Assembly: GCA_036001065.1 (NCBI GenBank)
Contig: DASYUQ010000126.1
Coordinates: 1-64,000 of the forward strand
Source: Candidatus Methylomirabilota bacterium
GTDB lineage: Bacteria > Methylomirabilota > Methylomirabilia > Rokubacteriales > CSP1-6
Direction of reading: 5' to 3'
DNA: 64,000 nt
This document shows, piece after piece, positions 11,884-26,987 of this stretch (the stretch's first letter is position 1; each line of letters begins with the position of its first letter). Made by a program: the position numbers and the translations under genes. Below the pieces are notes generated by a model, which ran no database searches, was not told the DNA's origin, and saw only the letters and a list, made by a program, of their open reading frames with translations.

Positions 11884-13413
11884 TTACACGGGGTACACGC
11901 CGTTGCGGCGCGGCGGGAACTCGTGGACCTTGGTCTCGGCGTAGGCCAGGCGCTTGATCAGCTCGGCGCGCAGCGCGGAGCCGGGCACGATGTCATCCAC
12001 CAGCATCTCGGAGGCGAGCTTGTAGACGTCCACGTCGCGGGCGAACTCGTCGCGCTTCTGCCGCACGAACGCAGCGCGCTCGGACTCCGGCAGCTCCATG
12101 ATCTTGTTGTAGTAGACGGCGTTCACCGCCGGCTCCGGCCCCATGATGGCGATCTGGCCCTGGGGCAGGCTGAGCGCGGCATCGGGCTCGAAGGCCGGAC
12201 CGCACATCGCGTAGAGCCCAGCCCCGTAGCACTTGCGCACCACCACGCAGATCTTGGGCACGGTGGCCTGGGAGGTGGCGAAGATCATCTTGGCGCCGTG
12301 GCGGATGATCCCCTCGCGCTCGACCTTGGTGCCCACCATGAAGCCGGCCACATCGGCCAGATACACGAGCGGGAGGTTGTAGGCGTTGCACAGCCAGATG
12401 AAGCGCGCCGCTTTGTCCGACGAGTCGACGAAGAGCACGCCGCCCTTCACCTTCGGCTGGTTGGCGACGATGCCGACGGCGCGACCGCCGAGGCGGCCGA
12501 GGCCGACGATCACCTCCGGGGCGAACAGGCGCTTGAGCTCGAACCAGGAGCCGGCATCGAGGACGCGGTCGATCACCTCGTACATGTCGAAGTACTTCCG
12601 CTGGTCGTAGGGAACGATCTCCTCGATGGACCGCCCGGGCTTGGGATCCACCGCCGCCGTCCGGGCCGGCCGCTCCCGGTAGGACTGGGGCATGTAGGCG
12701 AGATACTGCTTGGCGAGCTCGATCGCTTCCTCGTCGGAAGGCGCCAGCACGTCGCCGCAGCCGGACACCGTGCAGTGCATGCGCGCGCCCCCCAGCTCCT
12801 CCGGAGTGGTCTTCTCGCCGATCGCCATCTCGACCATCCGGGGGCTGCCCACGTAGAGCGAGGCCTTGCCCTCCACCATGATGACGACGTCGGTGAGGGC
12901 GGGGAGATAGGCCGAGCCGGCCGGCGAGGGACCGAAGAGGATGCAGAGCTGGGGCACGACGCCGGAGAGCTGCACCTCGTTGTAGAAGATCCGCCCGGCG
13001 TGGAAGCGCCCGGGGAAGACGCTGATCTGTTCGGAGATCCGGGCGCCGGCGGCGTCGACCATATAGAGGAGAGGCACCTGCAGCCGGCCCGCCTTCTCCT
13101 GGATCCGGATGATCTTCTGGACCGTCTTTTCGCCCCAGGAGCCGGCCTTGACCGTGTAGTCGTTGGCCATGATGCAAACGGTCCGGCCGCCGACGGCGCC
13201 GACACCGGTCACCACCCCGTCGGCCGGCGTCTCCGCTTCCTGCCCCCGCGCGAAGAGCCAGTCCTCCTGGAAGTCGCTGCCGGGATCGAGCAGTAGCTTC
13301 AGGCGGTCGCGGACGAAGAGCTTGCCCTCCGCGCGGAGCTTGTCGCGGTACTTGGTGTGGCCCTGCTCGATCCGCGCCCGCTCGCGGAAATGACGCTCTT
13401 CGCCTTCGCCCAC
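11884..13413 (-). CDS. acyl-CoA carboxylase, carboxyltransferase subunit (propionyl/methylcrotonyl type)
   Basis: This 509-residue enzyme is the biotin-dependent carboxyltransferase component that moves carboxyl from carboxybiotin to an acyl-CoA. Both crotonase-fold halves are present: GVVTGVGAVGGRTVCIMANDYTVKAGSWG and PLLYMVDAAGARISEQ in the N-half, and RLGGRAVGIVANQP, PLVYLADVAGFMVG and YGAGLYAMCGPAFEPD in the C-half. The FGPSPAGSAYLPALTD block is typical of the propionyl/methylcrotonyl/geranyl-type subunits. No biotin carboxylase or biotin carrier gene is adjacent, so the substrate stays open. Translation starts at GTG 13413. Confidence 0.9.
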   Translation of the reverse strand: MGEGEERHFRERARIEQGHTKYRDKLRAEGKLFVRDRLKLLLDPGSDFQEDWLFARGQEAETPADGVVTGVGAVGGRTVCIMANDYTVKAGSWGEKTVQKIIRIQEKAGRLQVPLLYMVDAAGARISEQISVFPGRFHAGRIFYNEVQLSGVVPQLCILFGPSPAGSAYLPALTDVVIMVEGKASLYVGSPRMVEMAIGEKTTPEELGGARMHCTVSGCGDVLAPSDEEAIELAKQYLAYMPQSYRERPARTAAVDPKPGRSIEEIVPYDQRKYFDMYEVIDRVLDAGSWFELKRLFAPEVIVGLGRLGGRAVGIVANQPKVKGGVLFVDSSDKAARFIWLCNAYNLPLVYLADVAGFMVGTKVEREGIIRHGAKMIFATSQATVPKICVVVRKCYGAGLYAMCGPAFEPDAALSLPQGQIAIMGPEPAVNAVYYNKIMELPESERAAFVRQKRDEFARDVDVYKLASEMLVDDIVPGSALRAELIKRLAYAETKVHEFPPRRNGVYPV

Positions 13414-13429: not shown

Positions 13430-14437
13430 CTATGGACTCGGCGAGACGACGATGATGAGCACGCCGTTGCCGTGGGGGGGTCCGCCGATGACGGCCGGCG
13501 CGCCGGGGGCGGCCTGGATCACCGTGTTCACCTCGGCGACGCGACCGCGGAGGAGCCGGACCCGCAGCCGGACCGGCGACGCGGACTCCGGCGTGATCTC
13601 GAGCTGCCGGTCCCCCGGCACGGCGAAGCGCTGGCTGGAGCCGACGGCGGCCTGCCCGCGGTAGCGCTCCAGCAACGCGTACTCGCGATACCGGAGCGTC
13701 TGTCGGAGGCGGGGCAGGAGCCGCTCCAGATCGGCCGGTACGCGCGAGCCGCCGGCGGGGGCATCGCTGGCCAGCAGCACCTGGGCGCCGAACCTCACCG
13801 CCTGCTCCGCCCGGACGACGACTGGCGCCAGCAGCATCACCAGCGCCAGGACCAGGACCAGCAGCGGTCCCAGCGCCTGGCGCAGGCGCTGGCGGGCGTT
13901 GTGCAGGCGCGACATCACCGTGCCCATCGGAATGTCCAGCACCTCGGCAATCTCCCGGTACGAGAGCCCTTGGAGATCGCCCAACATGATAATCGCGCGG
14001 TGATGCGGAGGCAAAGCCTCCAGCGCCCGCCGGACGCGCTCCCGGTCCTCGGCGCGCATCGCGACGTCGTCCGGCGCCGGACCTGGATCGACCATGACCC
14101 GCGCCCAGTCCTCCTCCGGCACCGGCTCGGTGCCGAACGCGCGCCCCCGGGCCGCCCGCTGCCGCGCCCGGTCGGTGGCGGCGTTGATCGCGATTCGGAA
14201 CAGCCAGGTGTAAAACGCCGACTGCCCCCGGAACGACGGCAGCGCCTGCCAGGCCCGGACGAAGGCCTCCTGGGCCACGTCCCACGCCTCTTCGGGATCC
14301 CGGAGGTAGTTGCAGGCGAGGCGCCACACGCGCTCACGGTATTTCTCCACCAGCGGCTCGAAGGCCGCCAGGTCGCCCTGCCGGCATCGCTCGACCAGCG
14401 CCTGATCGTCGGTGTCCACCGGGTGTCGGTTGCCCAC
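13430..14437 (-). CDS. ECF sigma factor fused to a membrane segment and an extracytoplasmic domain
   Basis: The protein has 335 residues. Residues 10-95 are sigma region 2 (DLAAFEPLVEKYRERVWRLA, WDVAQEAFVRAWQ) and 130-188 are region 4 (LPPHHRAIIMLGDLQGLSYR and MGTVMSRLHNARQRLRQAL). Without a stop, it runs into a hydrophobic segment at 190-209 ending VVVRAEQ, which looks like a signal or anchor. A ~125-residue unknown domain follows, ending PPHGNGVLIIVVSPSP. Ordinary ECF sigma factors end after region 4. Here the sigma factor may be tethered to the membrane, or two genes have been fused. No anti-sigma gene is adjacent. The acyl-CoA carboxylase gene follows 16 bp downstream. Confidence 0.85.
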   Translation of the reverse strand: MGNRHPVDTDDQALVERCRQGDLAAFEPLVEKYRERVWRLACNYLRDPEEAWDVAQEAFVRAWQALPSFRGQSAFYTWLFRIAINAATDRARQRAARGRAFGTEPVPEEDWARVMVDPGPAPDDVAMRAEDRERVRRALEALPPHHRAIIMLGDLQGLSYREIAEVLDIPMGTVMSRLHNARQRLRQALGPLLVLVLALVMLLAPVVVRAEQAVRFGAQVLLASDAPAGGSRVPADLERLLPRLRQTLRYREYALLERYRGQAAVGSSQRFAVPGDRQLEITPESASPVRLRVRLLRGRVAEVNTVIQAAPGAPAVIGGPPHGNGVLIIVVSPSP

Positions 14438-14479
14438 CCCGCGCCGTCAGGGCTTAGACGCCGGGGCGGCGGAGCCGAT

Positions 14480-14971
14480 TCATCGGCGCACGGCTCGCCG
14501 ACGCGCGCGCCGGTTCGCGTCATCGCCGGCAGGCGTGAGCGTGAGGAGAGCGTCGAGGCCGAGCAGGTAGCTCTGGGGGCCGAAGCCGGAGATCTGTCCC
14601 CGGGCGACGGCGGCGATCACCGAGTGGCGCCGGAACTCCTCCCGGCCGTGGACGTTGCTGAGGTGCACTTCGACCACCGGCAGGCGGATCCCCGCCACCG
14701 TGTCGCGGAGCGCGATCGAGTAGTGGGTGAAGGCGCCCGGGTTGAAGACGATCCCGGTGAAGCCCTCACGCTCGGCGCCCTGCAGCCAGTCGATGAGCTC
14801 CCCTTCGACGTTCGACTGACGACACACCACCCGCATCCCCCGCCGCCGCCCGTGGGACTGGATCAGGCGATCGAGCGCCGCCAGCGACAACGACCCATAG
14901 ATGGTGGGCTCGCGGACGCCGAGGAGGTTGAGGTTGGGACCGTGGAGCACGAGCCCGGCCGGAGATCTCAT
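14480..14971 (-). CDS. aroQ: 3-dehydroquinate dehydratase, type II
   Basis: This 163-residue enzyme catalyses the third shikimate-pathway step, 3-dehydroquinate to 3-dehydroshikimate. Type II hallmarks are HGPNLNLLGVREPTIYG at residues 9-25 (with the catalytic Tyr), QSNVEGELIDWLQ near 52-64, NPGAFTHYSIALRD near 77-90 and VEVHLSNVHGREEFRRHS near 100-117 (catalytic His). The C-terminal tail is short and Arg-rich. The ATG at 14971 fits the usual N-terminus. It precedes the sigma factor gene on the same strand by 42 bp. Confidence 0.95.
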   Translation of the reverse strand: MRSPAGLVLHGPNLNLLGVREPTIYGSLSLAALDRLIQSHGRRRGMRVVCRQSNVEGELIDWLQGAEREGFTGIVFNPGAFTHYSIALRDTVAGIRLPVVEVHLSNVHGREEFRRHSVIAAVARGQISGFGPQSYLLGLDALLTLTPAGDDANRRARRRAVRR

Positions 14972-15007
14972 GGCCGCCAGGATACCATCACGGCGTGGAG
15001 GCCGGCG

Positions 15008-15739
15008 TCAACGAGCGCCGAACGACGACAACGCCCAGTCGGCGGCCACGAAGAGGACGAGGCCGCCGATCACCGTCCAGGCCAGCGCGGGGCCGCCCTC
15101 GCGGTTCACCTCGGGGACCAGGTCCGAGGCCGCCACGTAGATCGTCACGCCGGCCGACAGGGCCAGCGCGTATCCGATGTGGCTCTCGGCCAGCAGGCTC
15201 GTGGCCAGCGCGCCGAGCACGGTGAGCACCCCGAGCGCGAGGCCGGCGCCCAGCGCGGCGGCGCGGGATCGTCCGGTGGCCAGCACGATGGAGGCGACCG
15301 TGAACCCCTCGGGCAGCTTGTGCAGCACGACCGCCAGGAACAGCAGGAGGCCGAGCGTGGGATCGATCATGAACCCCGCGGCGATGGCCACGCCGTCGAA
15401 GAGCGTGTGCACGCCGAGACCAAGCAGGGCCAGGTAGCCGGCCGAGGGCCGCAGAAACGCGTCGGCGTGGATCTCTTCCCCGAAGTGGAAGTGGGGTGCC
15501 ACGGTGTGCTCGAAGAGATGGATCCCGAAATAGCCCAGGAGCACGAACAGGAAGGCGTGAGGGACGTGGGCGCTCTCGGGCAGCATCCGCACGAACGCCG
15601 CCGCCAGCATGAAGCCGGCGCCCAGGGCCACGAAGTAACGCAGCGGCGCCCGGCGCCGACGATGCACGCTGGTGACGAATGCGGCGCCCGCCAAGTCCGC
15701 GGCGGCGGCCACGGCCACGAAGGCCCACTGTGCTAACAT
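15008..15739 (-). CDS. ZIP family divalent metal transporter
   Basis: This 243-residue membrane protein has about eight helices. The metal-binding helices are clear: LGVHTLFDGVAIAAGF (TM4, HxxxDG) and LHKLPEGFTVASI (TM5, HKLPEG). A His-rich stretch, HLFEHTVAPHFHFGEEIHAD, lies in the loop between TM3 and TM4. Family members move Zn2+, Fe2+ or related cations into the cytoplasm. The specificity here is unknown. It is divergent from gspE with only 17 bp between the start codons, so the promoters overlap. Confidence 0.9.
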   Translation of the reverse strand: MLAQWAFVAVAAAADLAGAAFVTSVHRRRRAPLRYFVALGAGFMLAAAFVRMLPESAHVPHAFLFVLLGYFGIHLFEHTVAPHFHFGEEIHADAFLRPSAGYLALLGLGVHTLFDGVAIAAGFMIDPTLGLLLFLAVVLHKLPEGFTVASIVLATGRSRAAALGAGLALGVLTVLGALATSLLAESHIGYALALSAGVTIYVAASDLVPEVNREGGPALAWTVIGGLVLFVAADWALSSFGAR

Positions 15740-15756: not shown

Positions 15757-17451
15757 ATGGCCATCGCGACGTCGACCCGGCTCCTCGGCGAGATTCTGAT
15801 CGCCGACGGCATCACCACGCCCGAGATGGTCGCGCTGGCGCTGAACCGCATGCGCACGACCGGCGAGCGCCTGGGCGAGGCGCTGGTGGGGCTCGGCGCC
15901 GCCACCAAGGAGGACGTGCTGCGTGCGGTCGCGCGCCAGCAGAACCTGCCGTACCTCTCGCGCGACGAGCTGCCGTCACCCCTGCCCGTCATCAAGAACC
16001 TCTCGCCCAAGTACCTCCGCCAGTACGTCGTCTGTCCGGTGAGCGTCGACGGCAGCCTCCTCACCGTGGCGACCTCCGAGCCGCTGAACCCGGTCATCGT
16101 GGACGATCTGCACCAGTGGACCGGCCTCAGCGTGCGCATCGTGGTGAGCGTGCCCGAGGTGATCCTGGAAGCGATCGACCGCACCTACGACGGCGCCGCC
16201 AGCCCGCTGCAGCGGATCGTCGAAGGCATGGAGGACGAGCGGGGACCCGACGGCGAGGAGGACGTGAATCACCTGCGCGACATGGCGTTCGAGGCGCCGG
16301 TGATCCGCCTGGTCAACCTGCTCGTCGAGAGCGCGATCGGGGCGGAGGCGTCCGACATCCACATCGAGCCGTTCGAGGACACCCTGCGCGTGCGCTACCG
16401 CATCGACGGCGTCCTGTACGACCAGGAGTCGCCCCCCCGGCGTCTGCGCGACGCGGTGACCTCGCGCATCAAGCTGATGGCGGAGATGAACATCGCCGAG
16501 CGGCGCCTGCCCCAGGACGGCCGCCTCCGCGTGTCCCTCCTGGGCCGGCGCGTCGACATCCGCGTCTCCACGATCCCCACCGTGCACGGCGAGTCCATCG
16601 TGATGCGGCTGCTCGACCGTCAGAGCGTCTTCCTGCCCCTCGAGCGCCTCGGCTTCGGTGCCGAGACGCTCAAGCACTTCGAGGCGCTCATCGAGCGGCC
16701 GCACGGGATCCTCCTCGTCACCGGCCCCACCGGCTCGGGCAAGACCACGACGCTCTACGGCGCGCTCGACAAGATCAACTCCCCGGACCGGAAGATCATC
16801 ACGATCGAAGACCCGGTGGAATATCAGCTGAAGGGCGTGAACCAGATTCCGGTGAAACCGAAGATCGGTCTGACATTCGCCACCGGCCTCCGACATATCG
16901 TGCGTCAGGATCCCGACGTGATCCTGGTGGGGGAGATCCGAGACCTGGAAACGGTGGACATCGCGATCCAGGCGGCCCTCACCGGCCACCTCGTCTTCTC
17001 CACGCTCCACACCAACGACGCCCCGGGCGCCATCCCCCGCCTGCAAGACATGGGCGCCGAGCCCTACCTGGTGGCGTCGGTGCTGGAAGGCGTGCTGGCC
17101 CAGCGTCTCGTACGCCGCATCTGTCCGGAGTGCCGGGCGCCCCACACGCCGACGGCCGCCGACATCGAGGCGCTCGGCGTCGCCGCCCCGCCCGGGGTGC
17201 AGCTCTACCGCGGGCGCGGGTGCGACCAGTGCCGGGGAACGGGCTACCGGGGACGTACGGGGATCTACGAGCTGTTCCCGATCACCGAAGACGCGCGGAG
17301 CCTCATCCTCCGCCGCGCGTCGAGCCGCGAGATCCGCCGCCTGGCCATCGAGGCCGGTATGACGACGCTGCGACTCGACGGCTGGGCCAAGGCCTGCCAG
17401 GGCGTCACCACGCTCGAGGAAGTCCTGGGCGTCACGCAGGAAGACGCCTGA
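15757..17451 (+). CDS. gspE: type II secretion system ATPase GspE
   Basis: This 564-residue cytoplasmic ATPase powers pseudopilus assembly. It has an N-terminal T2SSE_N/MshEN-like region (residues 1-150: LGEILIADGITTPEMVALAL), then the ATPase core with Walker A GPTGSGKTTTLYG near 325, the Asp box around TIEDPVEYQL, Walker B ILVGEIRD near 390 and the His box FSTLHTNDAPGA. A zinc tetracysteine (CPECR ... CDQCRGTGYRGRTG) is at 460-510. It heads the operon E-F-G-H-I-J-K-L-M-C-D. Confidence 0.95.
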   Translation: MAIATSTRLLGEILIADGITTPEMVALALNRMRTTGERLGEALVGLGAATKEDVLRAVARQQNLPYLSRDELPSPLPVIKNLSPKYLRQYVVCPVSVDGSLLTVATSEPLNPVIVDDLHQWTGLSVRIVVSVPEVILEAIDRTYDGAASPLQRIVEGMEDERGPDGEEDVNHLRDMAFEAPVIRLVNLLVESAIGAEASDIHIEPFEDTLRVRYRIDGVLYDQESPPRRLRDAVTSRIKLMAEMNIAERRLPQDGRLRVSLLGRRVDIRVSTIPTVHGESIVMRLLDRQSVFLPLERLGFGAETLKHFEALIERPHGILLVTGPTGSGKTTTLYGALDKINSPDRKIITIEDPVEYQLKGVNQIPVKPKIGLTFATGLRHIVRQDPDVILVGEIRDLETVDIAIQAALTGHLVFSTLHTNDAPGAIPRLQDMGAEPYLVASVLEGVLAQRLVRRICPECRAPHTPTAADIEALGVAAPPGVQLYRGRGCDQCRGTGYRGRTGIYELFPITEDARSLILRRASSREIRRLAIEAGMTTLRLDGWAKACQGVTTLEEVLGVTQEDA

Positions 17452-17456
17452 GCCCG

Positions 17457-18668
17457 ATGCCCGTTTACGTCTATCGCGCGGCCGACCGGCGCGGGCAGAC
17501 GATCGACGGCGTCATGGAGGCGCCGGATGCCCGGGCCGTGATCGAGCGGCTGCACCGCGAGGCGTACTTCCCCATCCGGGTAGCGCCCCACGCCGAGCGA
17601 GGTCCGTGGCTGAGCCTCGCCCTGTCGGGACGGGTCCGGCAGCGCGATCTCCTCGCGTTCACCCAGCAGCTGGCCACCCTGGTCGAGGCGGGCGTGCCGC
17701 TCGATCGCGCGCTCGGCATCCTCGAGGAACTGGCGACCAACCCGCGCCTCCGGGTCATCGTGGCGGACCTGCTGCGGACCGTACGCGGCGGCGGCTCGCT
17801 GAGCGATGCCCTCGCCAAGCACCATCCGCGCCCCTTCCCCCGCCTCTACATCAACATGGTCCGCGCGGGCGAAAAGGGCGGGGTCCTCGAGTTGGCGCTG
17901 CGGCGTCTGGCCGAGTTCCTGGAATCGCGCGCGGCCTTCACCGAGGCCATCATCTCGGCGATGGCCTATCCGCTGGTCATCACCGGCGTGGGGGCCGGCG
18001 CCGTCGTCTTCCTGCTCACGTTCGTGATCCCGCGCTTCGCCACGATCTTCGCCGACCTCAAGCAGACGATCCCCCTGCCGACGCAGATCCTGCTCGTCGT
18101 GAGCGGCGTCGTCCGGGAGTACTGGTGGGCGGGGGCGCTGGTCGGCCTGGCCGCGGTCCTGGCCTGGCGCGTGTGGACCCGCACGCCCGAGGGGCGCCTG
18201 CAGTGGGATCAGGTGCTCCTGCGCCTGCCCCGCTTCGGCGAGCTCATGATGAAGGTCGAGACCGCGCGTTTCGCCCGCACGCTCGGCACCATGCTCAAGA
18301 GCGGGGTGCCGGTGCTGGGAGCGCTGGCCGTCGTCGGCGACATGATGTCGAACCAGGTGATCGCGCGGGCCGTCGAGCGCGTGGCCGAGACCGTCAAGCG
18401 GGGGAGCAGCATCGCGGCGGCCCTGAGCGAGCACGCGCACCTGCCGGCGCTGGCCGTGCACATGGTCCGGGTCGGGGAGGAGACGGGCCGTCTGGAGGAA
18501 ATGCTGCTGAAGACCGCCGAGACCTTCGAGGGCGACGTCCGCACGGAGCTGAAACGGTTCATCGCGCTCCTGGAGCCCGCGATCATCCTCGGAATGGGGG
18601 TGCTGGTGGCGTTCATCGTCGTCGCGATGCTCATGGCCATCTTCTCGATCAACGAGCTCCCGCTGTGA
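17457..18668 (+). CDS. gspF: type II secretion inner-membrane platform protein GspF
   Basis: The protein has 403 residues from the ATG at 17457, five bases after the gspE stop. Two T2SSF domains are present. The first begins LLAFTQQLATLVEAGVPLDRAL and the second ETARFARTLGTMLKSGVPVLGAL. Three membrane helices include VITGVGAGAVVFLLTFVIP and the C-terminal IILGMGVLVAFIVVAMLMAIF. It forms the platform that couples GspE to pseudopilin assembly. The last two codons overlap a GTG (GTGA) in frame with gspG. Confidence 0.95.
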   Translation: MPVYVYRAADRRGQTIDGVMEAPDARAVIERLHREAYFPIRVAPHAERGPWLSLALSGRVRQRDLLAFTQQLATLVEAGVPLDRALGILEELATNPRLRVIVADLLRTVRGGGSLSDALAKHHPRPFPRLYINMVRAGEKGGVLELALRRLAEFLESRAAFTEAIISAMAYPLVITGVGAGAVVFLLTFVIPRFATIFADLKQTIPLPTQILLVVSGVVREYWWAGALVGLAAVLAWRVWTRTPEGRLQWDQVLLRLPRFGELMMKVETARFARTLGTMLKSGVPVLGALAVVGDMMSNQVIARAVERVAETVKRGSSIAAALSEHAHLPALAVHMVRVGEETGRLEEMLLKTAETFEGDVRTELKRFIALLEPAIILGMGVLVAFIVVAMLMAIFSINELPL

Positions 18669-19288
18669 TCGGCGATCGTGCCTGCGCCGGGGGGTGGCCG
18701 GGGAGCGGTCCCCGTCCGCCAGCAGATGCTGAGCGGCGCCGGGGAGGGGGAGGTCCCGGAGCGAGTTGTAGTTCGAAGCGACGGGGCCTCCCCCTCCCCG
18801 GCGCCGACCAAGAGCCGGACGGGGGCCGTGACCCGGACAGGCCCCGCCGGCGCGGGCGCCGCGCGATCACCGACCAGCGGGGGTTCACGCTGATCGAGCT
18901 GCTGGTGGTCATCATCATCCTGGGCCTGCTGGTAGGGCTGGTGGGACCGCGGCTCTTCGGGCGCGTGGGGCAGTCCAAGACGGCCGCGGCGCGGGCGCAG
19001 ATCGAACTGCTCGGCGCGGCGCTGGACCAGTACCGCCTCGACGTGGGGCGCTACCCCGACACGGGCCAGGGCCTCGACGTGCTGGTGCGGAACCCGGGTA
19101 CCCCCAACTGGAGCGGCCCCTACCTCAAGAGGGACGTGCCGAAGGACCCCTGGGGCAACCCCTACAAGTACCGCTGCTGCCCGGGACAGCACGGCGATTA
19201 CGACCTCTGGTCCGAAGGCGCCGACGGCGCCCCCGGCGGCGAAGGGGAGAACGTCGACGCGACGTCATGGGACAGCGGGTCGAAATAG
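18665..19288 (+). CDS. gspG: major pseudopilin GspG, start uncertain
   Basis: The recognisable pseudopilin begins at RG-FTLIELLVVIIILGLLVGLVGPRLF with the prepilin peptidase site before F and the essential Glu at +5. GspG motifs follow: ALDQYRLDVGRYPDTGQGLDVLV, PYLKRDVPKDPWGNPYKY and GDYDLWSEGADG. The frame has no ATG or TTG near this site. The only in-frame standard start is GTG 18665, overlapping the gspF stop, which gives 207 residues with an abnormal ~72-residue Gly/Pro/Arg-rich leader. That leader region contains a long inverted repeat (18706-18827), so either the repeat was inserted into the leader or a rare start (such as ATC 18866) is used. Confidence 0.85.
   Translation: MIGDRACAGGWPGSGPRPPADAERRRGGGGPGASCSSKRRGLPLPGADQEPDGGRDPDRPRRRGRRAITDQRGFTLIELLVVIIILGLLVGLVGPRLFGRVGQSKTAAARAQIELLGAALDQYRLDVGRYPDTGQGLDVLVRNPGTPNWSGPYLKRDVPKDPWGNPYKYRCCPGQHGDYDLWSEGADGAPGGEGENVDATSWDSGSK
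18706..18827. repeat. long inverted repeat between gspF and the gspG pseudopilin core
   Basis: A perfect 20-bp stem, CGGCGCCGGGGAGGGGGAGG (18734-18753) with its complement at 18787-18806, extends inward by about five further pairs. An outer arm (ggtccccgtccg at 18706 with cggacgggggcc at 18816) pairs as well. It could form a strong hairpin that tunes expression of gspG relative to gspE/F. It may be an inserted REP-like element. No second copy was seen in the window. Confidence 0.75.
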
Positions 19289-19713
19289 ACGAACGCGGGT
19301 TCACCCTCCTCGAGCTGCTGGTCACCTTGCTGGTCCTCGCCGTCGTCCTGGGTCTGGCCGGGCCCACGATCGGGCGCAGCGTGGAGGGGGTCCGGATGCG
19401 CGCCGAGGTATCGCGCTTCGCGGCGATGCTCCGCCACGCCCGGGAGCAGGCGATCACCACGCGGCGCCCCCACTCCCTCCTGGTGGACCCGCCCGGGCAC
19501 CGGGTGTTGATCATGGGCAACGACGAAGTGCGCGAGACACGCGCATTGCCGGCGCACCTCACGGTCGAGGCGGAGCCGCCGCCAGCGCTCACCGTCCGCT
19601 TCGAGCCGTACGGCGTCTCGAACGGCGGCACCTTCCGGCTGACCTCGGGCGACATCCGCTATCGGGTCACGGTCGATCCCCTCACCGGCCGTGTCCGCAC
19701 GGAGCGGCTGTGA
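19267..19713 (+). CDS. gspH: minor pseudopilin GspH
   Basis: This 148-residue protein has a short leader cleaved at G-FTLLELLVTLLVLAVVLG (residues 11-30, Glu at +5). A GspH-like globular part includes RMRAEVSRFAAMLRHAREQAITTRRPHSLLVD and ends DPLTGRVRTERL. It would join the pseudopilus tip. Its start lies inside the end of gspG (22-bp overlap), and its TGA overlaps the GTG of the next gene. Confidence 0.88.
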   Translation: MGQRVEIDERGFTLLELLVTLLVLAVVLGLAGPTIGRSVEGVRMRAEVSRFAAMLRHAREQAITTRRPHSLLVDPPGHRVLIMGNDEVRETRALPAHLTVEAEPPPALTVRFEPYGVSNGGTFRLTSGDIRYRVTVDPLTGRVRTERL

Positions 19714-20153
19714 TCCCCGGCCGGCCGCGGCCGGCGCGGAACGCCCACGGGGACTCGGGGTTCACGCTGCTCGAAGTGCTGGTGGCGCTCGCGATCCTCG
19801 GCCTGGCGGTGGTGGCGTCGATCCAGGCGTTCGCGCAAGGGCTGCGGCTGCTCAAGCTCTCCGGGGATCACCAGCAGGCGATGCTCCTGGCAGATCTGAA
19901 GGTGCGGGAGGTCGTCACGCCGGAGGAGGGGCGTGAGGAGCGCGACGAGGGCCGGTTCCACTGGGAGCGAACGACCAAGCTCGTCCCGGCGCCGGAGCTG
20001 ACGCCGCTGGCCGGGCCGCTTCGATGGCACATCTACGAGATCGCGGTGCGGGTCTCGTGGGACGAACGGCGGCAGGTCGAGATCACGACGCTCCGCACGG
20101 TCCCGGCCCAGCCGGCGCCGGGGCCTCCCAGCCTCAGTCCGAGAGCGCGCTGA
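19710..20153 (+). CDS. gspI: minor pseudopilin GspI
   Basis: This 147-residue protein begins at GTG 19710 overlapping the gspH stop (GTGA). The prepilin motif is SG-FTLLEVLVALAILGLAVVASIQAF, and the VLVALAILGLA core is typical of GspI. It is followed by QGLRLLKLSGDHQQAMLLADLK. In T2SS it nucleates the tip complex with GspJ and GspK. The Pro-rich C-terminus ends exactly at the gspJ start (TGATG). Confidence 0.9.
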   Translation: MIPGRPRPARNAHGDSGFTLLEVLVALAILGLAVVASIQAFAQGLRLLKLSGDHQQAMLLADLKVREVVTPEEGREERDEGRFHWERTTKLVPAPELTPLAGPLRWHIYEIAVRVSWDERRQVEITTLRTVPAQPAPGPPSLSPRAR

Positions 20154-20767
20154 TGCGCCGTCGTGGCCAGCGGGGTTTCACCCTTCTCGAGCTCATCCTC
20201 GCGCTGGCGATCGTCGGCGCCCTGGTCGCGGTCGCCTTCGGCGGCCTGCGAGTGGCGCTCGCCGCCTGGACCCAGGGCGAGGACCGGGCCGAGGCCCATC
20301 AGCATCTGCGCAGTGTCGCGCTGATCCTCGGCCGCACGCTGGCAGGGACATACCCCTACCGCGCGGCGGCGGAGCTGGCGCCCAACCCCGTCATCCTCTT
20401 CCGGGGCACCGAGAATCGGGTCGAGCTGGTCACCCAGGCCGCGCCGTTCCCGCTGGCGATCCCCGTCGCGTTCACCGCGGTCGTGATCGCGCTCGAGACC
20501 GACCAGGGACCCGCGCTGGTCGTCCGCCAGCGCGCCCTGCCCAATCGCGATCCCTTCATCCAGGCCGCGGTCGCGCTGCACGATCCCGGCATCCAGGCTC
20601 TCGAGTTCCGCTACCTGAACCAGAGCGGCGCCTGGCAGCCGACGTGGGACGCCGAAGCCGAGCAGGGGCTTCCGCGAGCGGTGCAGGTCACGGTGGCGAC
20701 GACGCGGGGGGGACGGACCGAAACGCTGCCGCCCCTGACGGTCGTGCTCCGCACGGGGACGCTGTGA
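20153..20767 (+). CDS. gspJ: minor pseudopilin GspJ
   Basis: The protein has 204 residues from the ATG at 20153, which overlaps the gspI stop. The leader MRRRGQRG precedes FTLLELILALAIVGALVAVAFGGLRVAL. The globular domain is long, as expected for GspJ, with LEFRYLNQSGAWQPTWD near residue 145 and a final beta segment TLPPLTVVLRTGTL. It is part of the I-J-K tip complex. The stop overlaps the GTG of gspK. Confidence 0.9.
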   Translation: MRRRGQRGFTLLELILALAIVGALVAVAFGGLRVALAAWTQGEDRAEAHQHLRSVALILGRTLAGTYPYRAAAELAPNPVILFRGTENRVELVTQAAPFPLAIPVAFTAVVIALETDQGPALVVRQRALPNRDPFIQAAVALHDPGIQALEFRYLNQSGAWQPTWDAEAEQGLPRAVQVTVATTRGGRTETLPPLTVVLRTGTL

Positions 20768-21702
20768 AGCCCGCCGCCGGCGCCAGCGAGCGCGGCTTTG
20801 CGCTGGTCGCCGTGCTCCTGGTGCTGTCGCTCGTGGGCATCATCGGCGCCGAGTTCGCGTACTCGATGCGCCTGGAGGCGAGCGCGGTCCGCGCCTGGAA
20901 GGACGGCATCACCGCCGCCCATCTGGCCGAGGCGGGGGTCGAGCAGGCCATGCGCGAGATCGCCGCCGACGCCGCCTACGTGGCCGTGGCCGACGACGGC
21001 GAGCTGACGTTCTACACGCGCGAGCGCATCGCCCGGCCGCGCTTGCCGCGCAGTGGGGTATCCCTGGGGGGCGGTCAGTTCTCCTACCGGGTCACGGACG
21101 AGGAGGCGCGGCTGAACCTCAACACCTCGCCGCCCGACCGGGTCGACCGCCTGCTGCTCGTCCTCGGTCTCACCAAGGCCGAGCGCGACGTCATCGTCGA
21201 TTCGCTGCAGGACTGGATGGATCCCAACGAGGAGCACCGCGCGAACGGCGCCGAGAGCGAGGACTACTACCTCAAGCTCCCGATTCCCCACCAGTCGCGC
21301 AACGGCCCTCTGGAGTCCGTGGCCGAGCTGCTCCAGATCCGCGGCGTCACGCCGCGGATCTTCAACGGCGACGGCGACACGCCGGCCCTGGCGGACCTGG
21401 TCACGGTCAAGACCCCGGGCCAGACCAACATCAACACCGCCAGCCTGCCGGTGCTGCGTGCGCTCGGCCTGTCCGACGCCGAGATCTCCGACATCAGCCA
21501 GGGGCGCCGCGACAGCCCCTACCCGACGGTGCCGGGACGCTTCACGGGCCGCGGCCTGGTCACCACCACGCGAACGTTCCGGATCGAGGCGCAAGGCCTG
21601 GTGGACGGCCAGGTGCGCGCCCGCCTGACCGCCGTCGTCCAGAGGCGCGCCGACGCCATCACCGGGTCGATCGTCGTGCTGGAGTGGTCAGGCGCCCACT
21701 GA
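20764..21702 (+). CDS. gspK: minor pseudopilin GspK
   Basis: The protein has 312 residues from GTG 20764. The leader ends RG-FALVAVLLVLSLVGIIGAEFAYSM; position +5 is not Glu, as is known for GspK. The large alpha-helical domain contains DEEARLNLNTSPP, LLLVLGLTKAERDVIVDSLQD, DWMDPNEEHRANGAE with acidic ion-binding residues, and NINTASLPVLRALGLSDAE. It caps the pseudopilus tip. A 102-bp gap follows before gspL, the longest break in the operon, with no gene in it. Confidence 0.92.
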   Translation: MKPAAGASERGFALVAVLLVLSLVGIIGAEFAYSMRLEASAVRAWKDGITAAHLAEAGVEQAMREIAADAAYVAVADDGELTFYTRERIARPRLPRSGVSLGGGQFSYRVTDEEARLNLNTSPPDRVDRLLLVLGLTKAERDVIVDSLQDWMDPNEEHRANGAESEDYYLKLPIPHQSRNGPLESVAELLQIRGVTPRIFNGDGDTPALADLVTVKTPGQTNINTASLPVLRALGLSDAEISDISQGRRDSPYPTVPGRFTGRGLVTTTRTFRIEAQGLVDGQVRARLTAVVQRRADAITGSIVVLEWSGAH

Positions 21703-21804
21703 TCGGCCTAGCCCCTCACAACCGAATTCCCCAAGCGCAACAAGACGTTGCGCATGACTCGCCATTCGGCGTAAGCTCTGGGCGGGAAGCGTAAGCTTGG
21801 CCCA

Positions 21805-23337
21805 GTGATACTCGATCCCACCCGACTCGCGATTTTCCTGCTCAGCGACCGCCTCGTCGCCGTGGCGATTCAGAGGCGTCGGGTCGAAGCCTTCGTGGTC
21901 GACGCCGAGAATTCCGCGGCCGCGCTCAGGGCCGAGCTCGACCAGCGCCGGCTCGCGCCCCGCACGGTGGCCATCGGACTGCCGCGCGCCTCGGTCACCG
22001 TCAAGCCGATCGAGCTGCCGTCCGTAGGCGGCGAACTCCGGGACATGGTCAGGTTCGAGCTGGAGCGCCACCTGCCGTCGGGCGGTGACGATTCCCCCTT
22101 CGACTACCTGCCCCTGCCCCCCGAGAGCGACGGCGGGCCCGCGCCGGCGGCGCAGGAGGTGCTGATCGCCGCCGCCGACCGGCGGGTCGTCGACGGGGCG
22201 CTCCGCATCGCCGAGGACGCCAAGCTGCGGCCCGTCTCGATCACCGTCGCCTCGCACAACCTCACCGCGCTCGTCCCGCGTCAGCGCCGCGGCAGGGTCG
22301 TCTGGGTCCATCGAGTCGGCGACGGGACCGACCTGCTTTTTCTCTCGGGGCCGACGCTGGTCCTCAGCCGCACCCTGCCCGAGGCCGACCACACCGTCAT
22401 CGCCGACGCCATCCGGCGCAGCTTCGTTCTCGCCCACTGGCGCGGCTGCGATGCGATCTGGATCTCCGGGGATGCCACGGCCGACGCCGCGGGCGCCCTG
22501 GCCGATCTGGGAGCGCCCGTCACCGAGCCTCCCTTCACGTCATCGGCGCGCCAGCGGCTGGCTGCGATCACCGAGACGCCGCGAGGCGCGTTCGATCTGG
22601 CGCTGGCGGTCGCCTCGGCCGGTCGCGTCCGGCCTCTGGAGCTGATCCCTCCCGCGTTGCGACCCCGGCACCTCACGCGCCCCCAGATGATGACGGCCGG
22701 AATGCTGGCGGCGACGCTCCTGCTGGGCCTGGGCGCTCTCCTGGTCCCGGGTTACCAGAACAGCCGGCGTCTGGCCGACCTCAACGCGCGGATCGCGCGG
22801 CTCGACCCCGAGGTCCGCGCCGTGGAGAAGGTGGTGCAGGAGCTGGACCGCAAGCGGCGCCTGCTGGCGACCGTCCAGTCGATCGAATCCACGACCATCC
22901 GGCCGCTGCCGGTCGTCCGCGAGCTCACCGAGCTGCTGCCGACCGACGCCTGGTTGACGATGCTCGCCCTCGACACGAAGGGCGTGGAGCTCACCGGGCA
23001 GGCGGCCGCGGCCGCCGCGCTCATCCCGCTCCTCGAAAACTCCCCGCGCTTCGAGCGGGTCGAGTTCTCTTCGCCGGTGACCCGCGGGCGCGACCGCGAG
23101 CAGTTCAGGATCCGGGCGACCTGGGAGGCCTCCGCCACGGTCGCCGGCGCGCCGGCCAGCGCGACCCCGCCCACCGGCCGCCCGCCGACGCTGCCGCCGC
23201 TGCCGACGCAGCGCCCCGGTCCTCCGACGGTCGGCGCGCCCGCCGAGCCTCCGCAGGCCCCGCTGCCCGAGGGGCTCCCCATGCAGCCGCGCCGGTCGTT
23301 TCCGCCGACGGCGATTCCCGGATCGGGAGCCAGATGA
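21805..23337 (+). CDS. gspL: GspL-type assembly protein with PilM-like and PilN-like parts
   Basis: The protein has 510 residues from GTG 21805. Residues 1-280 form an actin-like, PilM/GspL cytoplasmic domain (AIGLPRASVTVKPIELPSVG, DMVRFELERHLP). A single membrane helix near 300 (MMTAGMLAATLLLGLGALLVPG) is followed by a coiled coil and a PilN-like periplasmic domain (VVRELTELLPTDAWLTMLALD). The tail is Pro-rich. It should link GspE to the periplasmic M/C proteins. Its stop overlaps the next ATG (ATGA). Confidence 0.88.
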   Translation: MILDPTRLAIFLLSDRLVAVAIQRRRVEAFVVDAENSAAALRAELDQRRLAPRTVAIGLPRASVTVKPIELPSVGGELRDMVRFELERHLPSGGDDSPFDYLPLPPESDGGPAPAAQEVLIAAADRRVVDGALRIAEDAKLRPVSITVASHNLTALVPRQRRGRVVWVHRVGDGTDLLFLSGPTLVLSRTLPEADHTVIADAIRRSFVLAHWRGCDAIWISGDATADAAGALADLGAPVTEPPFTSSARQRLAAITETPRGAFDLALAVASAGRVRPLELIPPALRPRHLTRPQMMTAGMLAATLLLGLGALLVPGYQNSRRLADLNARIARLDPEVRAVEKVVQELDRKRRLLATVQSIESTTIRPLPVVRELTELLPTDAWLTMLALDTKGVELTGQAAAAAALIPLLENSPRFERVEFSSPVTRGRDREQFRIRATWEASATVAGAPASATPPTGRPPTLPPLPTQRPGPPTVGAPAEPPQAPLPEGLPMQPRRSFPPTAIPGSGAR

Positions 23338-23903
23338 TCGGCAATCTCTCTCGCCGCGAACGCGTCCTGGTCACGCTCGGCGCCCTGGTGGCGCTGCTCA
23401 TCATCGGCTGGGAAGGCCTCGTGCAGCCGATCCGCGAGCGGCAGCGCGTCGCCGCCGAGCTGGCGCCTATCCGCGAGCAGGTACTGGCGCGCCGGCAAGA
23501 GCTGGTCGCGCGCAGGTCCGCGATCGCAGCGGAGCTGGAGGCGACGAACGCGCGGTTGGAAGCGCTGAGCGCCCGACTTCTGCCCGGGGCCACGCCGGCC
23601 GTCGCCGCGTCCGAGCTCCAGAAGCTGGTCAAGGAGATGGCCGGGCAGGCGACGACCGAGGTGCGGAGCGAGCGCATTCTGCCACCGGTCGAGCGCGCCG
23701 AGCTGCTCGAGATCCCCCTGGAGATCACGGTCTCGGGCGATATCCGCCAGCTCGTGGATCTCCTCGCTCGGCTGGACCGTGCGCCCAAGCTGCTGGCGGT
23801 GCAGGACCTCAAGGTGCGGGTCGTCAACATCAGCCAGCCCAAGGACCTGCTGGCGACGTTGACGCTCTCCGGTTTCATCCTTCCTGGCAGGATCAGGACC
23901 TGA
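23334..23903 (+). CDS. gspM: GspM/PilO-like assembly protein
   Basis: This 189-residue protein has a short cytoplasmic start (MIGNLSRRERVLV), one membrane helix (TLGALVALLIIGWEGLVQPI), a heptad-rich coiled coil (ELVARRSAIAAELEATNARLEALSA) and a ferredoxin-like periplasmic domain ending LATLTLSGFILPG. This is the GspM/PilO plan. It partners GspL, whose stop overlaps its start. The next gene begins on its stop codon (TGATG). Confidence 0.85.
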   Translation: MIGNLSRRERVLVTLGALVALLIIGWEGLVQPIRERQRVAAELAPIREQVLARRQELVARRSAIAAELEATNARLEALSARLLPGATPAVAASELQKLVKEMAGQATTEVRSERILPPVERAELLEIPLEITVSGDIRQLVDLLARLDRAPKLLAVQDLKVRVVNISQPKDLLATLTLSGFILPGRIRT

Positions 23904-24622
23904 TGTCCAAGCGACTCCTCATCGTGAACACACTGCTGGCGGCCATGGCCCTGCTGTTCGCGGCATACATCGTGCGGGAGCTGACCCGGCCGGCGCCCGC
24001 GTCGGGGCCGGCCCGGGCCCGCGCCGGGGCTCCCCCCGCCGCTTCCGCCGCGCCTGCCGCCACTCCGCCCGCGTCCGGCTCCCCGGCGATCATCGCCGGC
24101 CGAAATCTCTTCAGCCCGACGCGCAACGAGGCCCCGGCGACGCCGGCCGGCCTCACCCAGGCGTCGCTGGTGGGCAAACCGAACCTCTACGGGGTAGTGC
24201 TCCGGGATGGTGCGCCGATTGCGTATCTCGAGGACCCGGTGACCAAGCGGGTGGCTGGCTATCGCGTGGGCGACGCGGTAGCCGGCGGCAAGCTGACGAA
24301 GATCGCCGCCGATCACGTGATTCTCGCGCGCCCGGAAGGCACCCTCGACGTCCGCCTGCACGATCCGGCGAGACCTCGGCCCGCGCCCCCGATGGGGCCG
24401 CCGGGCCAGGTCCAGCCGGCGCCCCCGGGCGTTCCAATGCCTCCGCCGCAATCGCTGCCGGGCGTCATCCCGCCGGTGGCACCCTCGCAACCGCCACCTC
24501 GGCCGCAGGTACAACCCCCTATGCCGGGCCAGGCCATCCAGCCGCCGCTGCCGCCGGCCCCGTTCCGTCGCCCGCTGCCGCCGGGCTTGCGGCGCTTCCC
24601 CAGTGATGCTCCGACCCAATAG
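23903..24622 (+). CDS. gspC: GspC-like inner-membrane connector lacking a PDZ domain
   Basis: This 239-residue protein has an N-terminal membrane anchor (LLIVNTLLAAMALLFAAYIV), a Pro/Ala linker and a homology-region core (NLFSPTRN ... PNLYGVVLRDGAPIAYLEDPVTKRVAGYRVGDAVAGG) that in GspC contacts the secretin. Instead of a PDZ or coiled-coil domain it ends in ~80 Pro-rich residues. A paralogue with the same core is encoded at 42463-43296. The 3' end overlaps the start of gspD by 20 bp. Confidence 0.82.
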   Translation: MSKRLLIVNTLLAAMALLFAAYIVRELTRPAPASGPARARAGAPPAASAAPAATPPASGSPAIIAGRNLFSPTRNEAPATPAGLTQASLVGKPNLYGVVLRDGAPIAYLEDPVTKRVAGYRVGDAVAGGKLTKIAADHVILARPEGTLDVRLHDPARPRPAPPMGPPGQVQPAPPGVPMPPPQSLPGVIPPVAPSQPPPRPQVQPPMPGQAIQPPLPPAPFRRPLPPGLRRFPSDAPTQ

Positions 24623-26987
24623 CCTCGGCGCCGTCGCCGTCCTGCTCGTGCTGGCGCCGTGGCTCGGCTCCTGCGCCGCCCCGAAGCCTCGGCCGGTGCC
24701 GCCGCCCGCGGCGCAGCCCGTCCCGCCGCCGCCCCTAGCCCCGCCTCCTCCGGCGGCGGAACCCGCCTCGCCGCCTTCGATCGGGCCGCGACCGCAAACG
24801 GTGCAGGAGCCGCCGACCGTCCAGATTCCGTCCCCTCCCCCGACGCCGCCAGCCCCCCCGACGGCGCCGCCGGTGCCGCCCGGTCAGCGCGGCCGGTTCG
24901 TCGTCCTGAACTTCGACAACGCCGACATCGAGACCGTGGTCCACGCGGCCAGCGAGATCCTGGGCTTCAACTACGTCCTGGCCCCCGACGTGCGGGGCAA
25001 GGTGACGGTGCAGACCTCCGGCCGGATCCCCCAGGAGGACGTGTTCGGCGTTCTGCTGGCGGTCCTCGAGGTCCACGGCTTCACCGCCGTCAAGTCCGGG
25101 AGCCTCTACAAGATCGTCCGCCTCGAGGGCGCGCGGGAACGGGCGGTGCCGACGATCATCGGAGCCGATCCCGATCCCAATCGCACGAGCGACGAGGTCA
25201 TCACGCAGATCATCCCGGTACGCTATTCGTCGGTGACCGACCTGGGCACGCTGCTGCGCCCGCTGATCTCGAGCCGCGGCACCCTGATCGCGCACCGCGA
25301 GACCAACATCCTGATCATCACCGATGCCGCGTCCAACGTACTCCGGCTGCTCAACATCATCCGCCTCGTCGACGTGGAGGTGGCCCTGGACGAGCTGCAG
25401 ATCGTCCCCATCCGCTTCGCCGATGCGAACGACCTGGCGACGATCCTCAATCAGCTCTTCGCCAGCGGACGGCTCCGCCGCGCCGCCCCCTCGGCCCCCG
25501 GCGCCCCGCCGACTCCGCCACCCACGGCGCCCGGAACGCTGCAGCCGCCGACCGCCCCGGCGCCGCGGACGCCCGGCGAGACCGTGGGGGCCGAACGCGC
25601 GCCCCTCATCGTGGCCGAGCGCCGCTCCAACTCGCTCATCATCCACGCCCGCAAGCCCGAGGTGGAGATGATCCGCAAGCTGATCAACCAGCTCGACATC
25701 AACATCTACGGCGGCCGCCGGGTGTTCATCTACTACGCGGAGAGCGCCAAGGCCAAGGACCTGGCCGCCACCCTGAACGCGATCTATGGGGGGCAGCCCC
25801 AGCCGACGAGCACCACGCCGACGCCCTCGACGCCGCGCCGACCGGGCGAACCTGCGCCATATGTGCCCCCACCGCCGCCGCCACCGCCCACCACACCGGG
25901 CGCGCCGCCCGGCGGCGCTGCCGCGCCCATCGGGGAGTTGGGTCTCATCGAGGGTCAGGTCCGCTTCATCCCGGACGAGACCACCAACTCGGTCATCGTC
26001 ACGACCTTCCCGCGGAACTGGCCCGAGATCGAGGCCACCATCAAGCAGCTCGACCGCCAGCCGCGCCAGGTGCTCATCGAGGTGCTGGTGGCGGAGATCA
26101 CGCTCACCGACGATCTCCGCCTCGGCATCGACTGGGCCATCAAGTCGGGCTCGTACCGGGTGGCCCAGTCCGCCATCACGACCGCGCCGACGGCGGCGAT
26201 CGTATCGCCGAGCCGCGAGCTGCCCGTGCCGGGGGCGCCGCTCGGGCTGCCTGCGGGCGGCCTCACCGCCTTCGCCTTCCAGTCGGACAGGTTCTTCGCG
26301 CTGCTCAACGCGTTCGCCTCCGAGAACCGCGTCAACGTCCTCTCGAACCCGCACGTGATGACGTCGGAGAACAAGAAGGCGGTCATCAACGTCTCGAACT
26401 CGATCCCGATCGTCACCAGCCAGCAGGTGCCGATCGGCGGGACGACGACGCCCACGGCGACGGCCACGACTTCGGTCATCGGCACCCAGACGGTCGAGTA
26501 CCGCGACGCCGGCGTCATCCTGACGGTGACGCCCCGGATCGGCGAGCGTGGCACCGTGGCCCTCGACGTCAAACAGGAGGTGAACGACATCGGCGCCGAG
26601 GAACCGCCCACCGGCTCCAAGCGGATCATCAAGCGCGAAGCGGAGACCTCCGTGGTCCTGATGAACAATCAGACGCTCGTGCTGGGCGGGCTGATTCGAG
26701 ACAAGCGCACGGTCGAAGACCGGGGGATCCCGTTCCTCAAGAACATCCCGATCCTCGGGTATTTCTTCGGCGCCAAGGTCCGGACCCTCGAGAAGACCGA
26801 GCTACTGATCCTGATCACGCCGCGCGTGATCGGCACGGCGCTGGACGCCGGCCGGATCACGGAAGAGATGCGGCGGGCGACGCCGGAGGTGGACGAGGCG
26901 ATCCGGCGGTCGCCGCGCCAGCCCACGCCGCTCCCGCCGCCCGAGCAGGTGCCGCAGCCTCCGCAGCCTGCGCCCTCGGCGCCATAG
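24603..26987 (+). CDS. gspD: type II secretion outer-membrane secretin GspD, lipoprotein form
   Basis: This 794-residue secretin starts at GTG 24603 or ATG 24606. The signal ends in a lipobox LGSC (Cys about 24), then a long Pro-rich linker. N0 begins at FVVLNFDNADIETVVHAASEILG (about 100). N1-N3 repeats follow (VRYSSVTDLGTLLRPLIS, VPIRFADANDLATILNQLF, IYYAESAKAKDLAATLNAIYGG) with Pro-rich insertions between them. The secretin barrel spans about 490-730 and includes VLSNPHVMTSENKKA and GIPFLKNIPILGYFFGAK. A lipidated secretin may target the outer membrane without a separate GspS pilotin; none is seen here. Confidence 0.95.
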   Translation: MMLRPNSLGAVAVLLVLAPWLGSCAAPKPRPVPPPAAQPVPPPPLAPPPPAAEPASPPSIGPRPQTVQEPPTVQIPSPPPTPPAPPTAPPVPPGQRGRFVVLNFDNADIETVVHAASEILGFNYVLAPDVRGKVTVQTSGRIPQEDVFGVLLAVLEVHGFTAVKSGSLYKIVRLEGARERAVPTIIGADPDPNRTSDEVITQIIPVRYSSVTDLGTLLRPLISSRGTLIAHRETNILIITDAASNVLRLLNIIRLVDVEVALDELQIVPIRFADANDLATILNQLFASGRLRRAAPSAPGAPPTPPPTAPGTLQPPTAPAPRTPGETVGAERAPLIVAERRSNSLIIHARKPEVEMIRKLINQLDINIYGGRRVFIYYAESAKAKDLAATLNAIYGGQPQPTSTTPTPSTPRRPGEPAPYVPPPPPPPPTTPGAPPGGAAAPIGELGLIEGQVRFIPDETTNSVIVTTFPRNWPEIEATIKQLDRQPRQVLIEVLVAEITLTDDLRLGIDWAIKSGSYRVAQSAITTAPTAAIVSPSRELPVPGAPLGLPAGGLTAFAFQSDRFFALLNAFASENRVNVLSNPHVMTSENKKAVINVSNSIPIVTSQQVPIGGTTTPTATATTSVIGTQTVEYRDAGVILTVTPRIGERGTVALDVKQEVNDIGAEEPPTGSKRIIKREAETSVVLMNNQTLVLGGLIRDKRTVEDRGIPFLKNIPILGYFFGAKVRTLEKTELLILITPRVIGTALDAGRITEEMRRATPEVDEAIRRSPRQPTPLPPPEQVPQPPQPAPSAP

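Follow-up and report, generated by a model that had tools for sequence, protein, structure and literature searches.

In the sigmaE/RseA system of Escherichia coli and in AlgU/MucA, the sigma factor is controlled by a membrane anti-sigma factor, and the two genes are adjacent. Other ECF sigma factors carry a membrane part within their own polypeptide. ECF52, ECF48 and ECF53 (e.g., SCO4117 of Streptomyces) combine an ECF sigma factor with a transmembrane segment and an outer domain, carry a zinc-finger anti-sigma domain inside the fusion, and are proposed to be released by proteolysis (PMC8999054; PMC5826349). In IutY (ECF243) of Pseudomonas putida sigma factor and membrane part likewise form one protein, which is released by RseP-type cleavage and in which the fused part is the anti-sigma factor itself (PMC8999054). 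Signal peptidase acts as the site-1 protease on the anti-sigma factor RsiP, followed by RasP (PMC8844934), and RseP has a role in the removal of signal peptides (PMC8144685).

Here we analyzed a window, i.e., a whole stretch of 64,000 nucleotides from a Candidatus Methylomirabilota bacterium of the order Rokubacteriales (contig DASYUQ010000126.1), in which an ECF sigma factor runs in frame through a signal-peptide-like segment into a secretin-like domain (Table 1). Its sigma domain is 40-41% identical to the structures of E. coli sigmaE and AlgU (Foldseek against PDB), from which the protein differs by its fused outer domain. Unlike ECF52, ECF48 and ECF53, it contains no zinc-finger anti-sigma domain, the zinc-finger anti-sigma factor being a distant separate gene; and whereas the fused part of IutY is an anti-sigma factor, here it is a predicted exported secretin-like protein. 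The C-terminal 146 residues matched no Pfam or NCBIfam family, the IutY-type FecR-like region included. As fused zinc finger and FecR region are both absent, we do not file the protein under these groups; it is a further form of C-terminally extended ECF sigma factor, distinct from ECF52/48/53 and IutY. In a literature search of partial coverage we found no precedent for a sigma factor that is joined to an exported protein and lacks an anti-sigma domain.

Table 1. Features of the fused gene and its surroundings (window coordinates)
Feature	Position	Strand	Basis or remark
Gene joining an ECF sigma factor to a signal-peptide-like segment and a secretin-like C-domain	13430..14437	-	335 aa, GTG start
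Sigma domain, residues 1-190, regions 2 and 4	13868..14437	-	Pfam; Foldseek vs PDB
Hydrophobic segment, residues ~192-208, then signal-peptidase-like motif VRA/EQ (slash, predicted cut)	13814..13864	-	structure model; (-3,-1) rule
Secretin-like beta domain at the C-terminus, predicted to lie outside the inner membrane	13433..13807	-	structure model; VIA-align; hhalign
Putative ECF promoter immediately before the fused gene, GAAT-N17-CGTCTAA, overlapping the aroQ stop	14454..14481	-	motif count
aroQ (type II dehydroquinase), upstream neighbour	14480..14971	-	Pfam
Acyl-CoA carboxylase carboxyltransferase subunit, downstream neighbour	11884..13413	-	Pfam
Type II secretion cluster from gspE (15757) to the secretin gene gspD (24603-26987), running divergently from the ZIP-aroQ-fusion-carboxylase genes	15757..26987	+	Pfam T2SSE; Secretin domain 26313-26831; ORFs

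The fused gene and its conservation

Pfam recognized Sigma70_r2 (8e-20) and Sigma70_r4_2 (3e-16) within residues 29-187, and the protein scored above the cut-off of the NCBIfam sigma70-ECF superfamily; regions 2 and 4 without region 3 place it among the ECF (group IV) sigma factors. Beyond residue 190 neither zf-HC2 nor any other domain was found with Pfam or NCBIfam. The exact start codon, for which we used the GTG, is uncertain. Region 4 of the sigma factor (sigma4) joins, without a linker, a hydrophobic stretch ending in VVVRA/EQ, and in the full-length model the two form one continuous helix (residues 167-199; pLDDT 79 overall, pTM 0.39, the relative placement of the parts being unsure). 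The sequence-only reading of this locus had described a sigma factor continuing in frame into a hydrophobic segment and a putative outer domain, with no anti-sigma gene adjacent, and the analysis supports all of this. The hydrophobic segment is single and its inner flank positively charged, and therefore the sigma factor is predicted to lie inside and the C-domain outside. On the strand opposite the fusion, aroQ and ZIP runs a 754-codon open frame (window 13472-15736, plus strand); it is a shadow frame of GC-rich DNA and unlikely to be a gene.

The same fusion was looked for in relatives. In all 26 loci whose proteins were read, drawn from 40 genomes searched with the window's own included, the two parts form one unbroken frame with no stop between them, of 335 codons in the window (L021 and L023 are cut 5' by a contig end). 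This rules out a sequencing or assembly artefact and, within the order, two genes with a conserved stop; chance origin is excluded by the conservation of the fusion at 52-92% identity across the order. The fused sigma factors form one clade in the sigma tree (support 96/99). A profile of the C-domain matched 66 of 95 genomes of the phylum: 55 of the 60 that belong to the window's order (families f1-f4), and 11 of the 35 from outside it. The order's five unmatched genomes are 64-87% complete. As far as they are named, the C-domain-bearing genomes of the order are all Rokubacteria, soil bacteria that are not known to have cultured strains. Among named records Candidatus Rokubacteria bacterium 13_1_40CM_69_27 is the next relative (92%). 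Of 80 loci retained from such records, 10 match from end to end, each of them labelled Rokubacteria or Rokuibacteriota, while the match of the remaining 70 is mainly to the sigma part. At one locus, L074 (G070:C120), the C-domain is split by a frameshift into two overlapping frames, through assembly error or decay. The C-domain is divergent in a subclade formed by L017, L018, L020 and L021 (genomes G015, G007, G021 and G020), where the GG of the IGGP motif is replaced by AG or VG.

Modelled alone with 37 sequences, the C-domain of ~124 residues gave pLDDT 93.1 and pTM 0.86. Foldseek of this model against PDB returned nothing significant, and Pfam, NCBIfam and PDB-sequence searches yielded no family above cut-off. 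With VIA-align, secretins occupied rows 1-21 (Z 6.5-8.7, rmsd 3.7-4.8, 98-102 residues), a Z near 8 being by itself attainable through a common arrangement of elements. When aligned by hhalign to 32 secretin domains from these genomes, the C-domain scored 35.4 (E 4e-5, 48 columns); 100 column shuffles averaged 12.3 and never exceeded 20.1, and the reversed control gave 10; the single-sequence GspD of the window gave nothing. The Pfam Secretin family (PF00263) did not match the C-domain of the window, and one operon homologue of the domain reached 14.4 bits (cut-off 27.5). A PDZ-like identity was not adopted, its weak rows (E 0.0014 and above) being at odds with the structure rows. On the model and the profiles, we read the C-domain as a trimmed secretin-like domain lying below the Pfam secretin cut-off: it appears to resemble the secretin domain of GspD, InvG, RcpA and pIV in fold and profile, but what follows the GG motif is much reduced in length and the ring-forming N-domains are absent.

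In each of the 26 fusions the stretch following sigma4 shows a basic flank and a hydrophobic core, whose best 17 residues average at least 2.0 on the Kyte-Doolittle scale. With its n-, h- and c-regions and small residues at -3 and -1 it looks like a signal peptidase I substrate; the (-3,-1) rule, which is lax, holds in all 26 and strict AxA in 22. This regularity suggests that export processing splits the fused protein, cleavage here being a prediction, and the h-region could also be an uncleaved anchor. Since the segment resembles a cleavable signal peptide, membrane anchoring is possibly transient.

The genes on either side of the fusion are aroQ and the carboxylase subunit, and the aroQ-fusion order is kept in all 24 testable loci. 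Our family searches covered two genes of the type II secretion cluster, gspE and gspD. Among the 21 genomes (of 26) whose contig reaches far enough, 18 have one or the other within ~14 kb upstream of the fusion, the exceptions being G003, G017 and G019. This neighbourhood may be hitch-hiking.

Three-gene operons in relatives and a lone anti-sigma gene

The sequence-only reading had asked whether the C-domain exists as a separate protein next to ECF sigma genes, and had held that two separate genes in relatives would speak against the fusion. A separate protein was indeed found in families f8 (L061-L065) and f9 (L068, L069, L071, which is cut at its start, and L070, cut within sigma) and in two genomes of f1 (L066 and L067). 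These loci carry an operon in the order sigma factor, single-pass anti-sigma factor ending in IWV, and separate secreted protein with its own signal peptide. The genes overlap by 4-8 bases or are separated by 1-20 bases; in the seven loci measured, sigma and anti-sigma genes range from an 8-base overlap to a 4-base gap, and the third gene follows with a 4-base overlap or a 20-base gap. Thus the two-gene alternative fails inside the order, where 26 of 26 loci are fused, and holds in the sister families, whose C-domain is secreted as a protein of its own. L066 (G014:C60) and L067 (G090:C206) are intact operons present as a second copy beside the fusion, so that two genomes of the window's family each combine both architectures. 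For the operon anti-sigma factors, zf-HC2 scored above the Pfam cut-off in L061 and fell just short of it in L068, while Pfam gave no such match in L066. In f7 a sigma gene adjoins an anti-sigma gene at contig ends. Apparent 336-codon fusions in f9 were rejected, as the frame runs across the anti-sigma gene and the f9 sigma gene has its own stop.

Fused and operon sigma factors fell on one side of the sigma tree (94/83) when five long-branch rows were left out, long-branch rows being omitted from the second anti-sigma tree too; with these rows kept the same grouping received only 55/28. Because the same parts form a tight operon in relatives, we conclude that the fusion arose by loss of the anti-sigma gene from between the other two. 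On this reading the ancestor had three overlapping genes: one for an ECF sigma factor of RpoE type, one for a zinc-finger anti-sigma factor with a single membrane pass, and one for a secretin-like protein that was secreted. Removal of the middle gene in Rokubacteria made sigma4 run into the signal peptide of the third protein, and an anti-sigma factor of the same family is now encoded alone elsewhere in the genome.

For most of the order's genomes, the top match to a profile of the operon anti-sigma factors (A3) was a lone gene, not next to a sigma factor. It adjoins a DUF502-like membrane protein in the loci read (by Pfam for one of them), and no sigma gene was found within 1.5 kb of it at any of 30 loci by a sigma profile run on ORFs, which did detect the sigma genes of all 20 comparison loci. 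At a cut-off of 1e-30, which two f8 operon anti-sigma factors also passed, the lone gene is present in 53 of the 60 genomes: 50 have it together with the fusion, three have it alone, five have the fusion only and two have neither. A profile of the lone anti-sigma factors (A5) gave 87-110 bits with the operon anti-sigma factors of f7-f9, at most 62.5 bits with unrelated ones, and only 36-42 bits with the two from f1 operons. The lone anti-sigma factors form one clade (92/97) in the anti-sigma tree; one clade of lone and operon anti-sigma factors was not recovered in the tree without long-branch rows. Pfam found zf-HC2 in lone anti-sigma factors L166 (1.4e-7) and L158 (4.9e-9) and no match to it in L159. 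The fusion occurs without a clear lone anti-sigma gene in G009, G077, G015, G020 and G021, among which G015 and G021 are 93% and 97% complete and belong to one subclade. Three of the four genomes of the subclade with the divergent C-domain have no clear lone anti-sigma gene.

A promoter motif shared by the fusion and the lone anti-sigma gene

A common motif was seen by eye in the upstream sequences (TGAAT..CGTCTAA before fusions, GAATA..CGTCYRA before lone anti-sigma genes) and counted afterwards. In its strict form, GAAT-N16-18-CGTCYRA, it precedes 21 of 24 fusions, L021 and L023 being left out for want of a gene start, and 26 of 30 lone anti-sigma genes, in genomes that are related to each other; shuffles gave means of 0.00 and 0.01, respectively, and the opposite strand none. 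In the window's own genome the copy before the lone gene lies outside the window (G000:C1:39718-39746). Seven exact matches occur in this whole genome, two of them the fusion and lone anti-sigma sites, and none with the reversed-pattern control. Searched for exact matches, five whole genomes gave 43, of which 37 were followed up by sequence, and among these only the fusion and the lone anti-sigma gene recur in all five. Unrelated sigma genes had the motif in 0 of 20 cases, the sole carrier among 21 other sigma genes (L212, loose form) being an f7 operon sigma factor. The genome-wide and unrelated-sigma controls are independent of the choice by eye, the shuffle counts not fully so. A classical GGAAC-type -35 element was not enriched before fusion or lone anti-sigma genes.

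The motif also precedes the f7 operons, in loose form, and the f9 operons; in f8 operons CGTCTA is present and a clear GAAT at the right distance was not seen. At the fusion loci that were inspected, TGA in the -35 motif doubles as the aroQ stop codon. As a putative promoter, the shared motif would show co-regulation of the fusion and the lone anti-sigma gene, not binding between their products. The sequence-only reading had held that a sigma factor tethered by its own tail would not need a separate anti-sigma factor; this is probably wrong, given a homologue encoded alone in 53 of 60 genomes and the promoter motif that it shares with the fusion.

Other sites were noted. The motif stands before a dksA/traR-type zinc-finger gene in L270 (G014:C48; Pfam 9.6e-13), followed there by a frame that we take to be acyltransferase-like, and likewise before its counterpart in L280 (G004:C34). 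This gene recurs with the motif in two of the five genomes and is a possible further target; a similar site lies at G063:C117:83418. An exact match antisense inside gspD (window 26669-26697, minus strand), found also in G001 and in the second secretin gene of G000 (C56), is likely a chance match in conserved codons.

Proposed regulation and alternative readings

We consider it probable, though well short of certain, that the locus belongs to a rearranged sigma/anti-sigma/exported-protein system in which the lone anti-sigma factor restrains the tethered sigma factor, a feedback loop operates and release takes two proteolytic steps. The fused protein would insert with the sigma factor inside and the secretin-like domain outside, and the lone anti-sigma factor would hold the tethered sigma factor inactive in trans. 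As the sigma factor is part of an exported protein, its release would most simply take two steps: signal peptidase would free the outer domain, leaving a remnant signal helix on the sigma factor, and an intramembrane (site-2) protease would then clear that helix and set the sigma factor free. Once active, it would transcribe its own fusion gene and the anti-sigma gene, closing the loop. The same sequence of a signal peptidase site as first cut and a site-2 protease thereafter is described for RsiP/sigmaP (PMC8844934), where however the anti-sigma factor is cut, while in Rokubacteria the site is in the sigma polypeptide and its cleavage is inferred.

The proposal can be taken further, to a secretion-coupled switch in which the sigma polypeptide is a signal-peptidase substrate. 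Export of the secretin-like domain, in a locus usually adjoining type II secretion genes, would be the first cut, clearance of the remnant helix would free the sigma factor and so tie its own transcription to successful export, and the relocated anti-sigma factor would be the brake. This stronger version we regard as rather unlikely. A rival reading, possible if on the whole doubtful, makes the C-domain the output and not the sensor: the sigma factor would be a pro-piece of the very product that it targets, and the loop would serve mainly to raise the amount of the exported secretin-like protein. In relatives the domain is encoded last in an operon that is probably autoregulated, and the fusion and anti-sigma genes were the only motif targets found in all five genomes, which speaks for this; yet only exact matches were searched, and the dksA/traR-type gene recurs in two of the five. 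The sequence-only reading took the C-domain for the probable sensor; because it was originally a separate operon product, it may just as well be an effector.

If the lone anti-sigma factor served another sigma factor, the fusion could be, in line with the sequence-only reading, a self-sufficient membrane-tethered sigma factor, anchored by its tail, sensing through its outer domain and released by proteolysis of the tail. The anti-sigma gene is indeed not adjacent to the fusion, no linker separates sigma4 from the hydrophobic helix, a clear lone anti-sigma gene is missing from five genomes with the fusion, and sigma factors regulated by membrane extensions, IutY and ECF52, are described (PMC8999054). 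Against it, no sigma gene lies beside the lone anti-sigma gene, which is of the same family, occurs in 53 of 60 genomes and has a private promoter in common with the fusion, and we judge this reading unlikely. Still less credible to us is that one frame yields two proteins, the exported domain being made mainly from an internal start at the sigma4 Met of GTVMSRL, with the full-length protein a by-product or processed. From this Met on, the residues do look like a classical signal peptide (MSRLHNARKRLR.. followed by h-region and AxA), but its Shine-Dalgarno score is at most 3 in 26 of 26 loci, control in-frame codons averaging 2.75, whereas operon copies of the exported protein score 3-8; moreover, a conserved Met is expected in ECF sigma4 anyway.

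In the rearranged system that we favour, Rokubacteria would preserve a rarely seen intermediate: the complete operon persists in relatives, and in one order the outer genes are fused and the middle gene relocated with the promoter still common. An unannotated exported domain is thereby linked to sigma factor control by a gene-fusion argument, and the absence of an adjacent anti-sigma gene need not mean the absence of an anti-sigma factor. The fusion further suggests that a signal peptide can act as the tether of a sigma factor, and the type II secretion neighbourhood together with the secretin-like domain is of interest. If it is true that export processing releases the sigma factor, transcription would be directly coupled to secretion in these bacteria.
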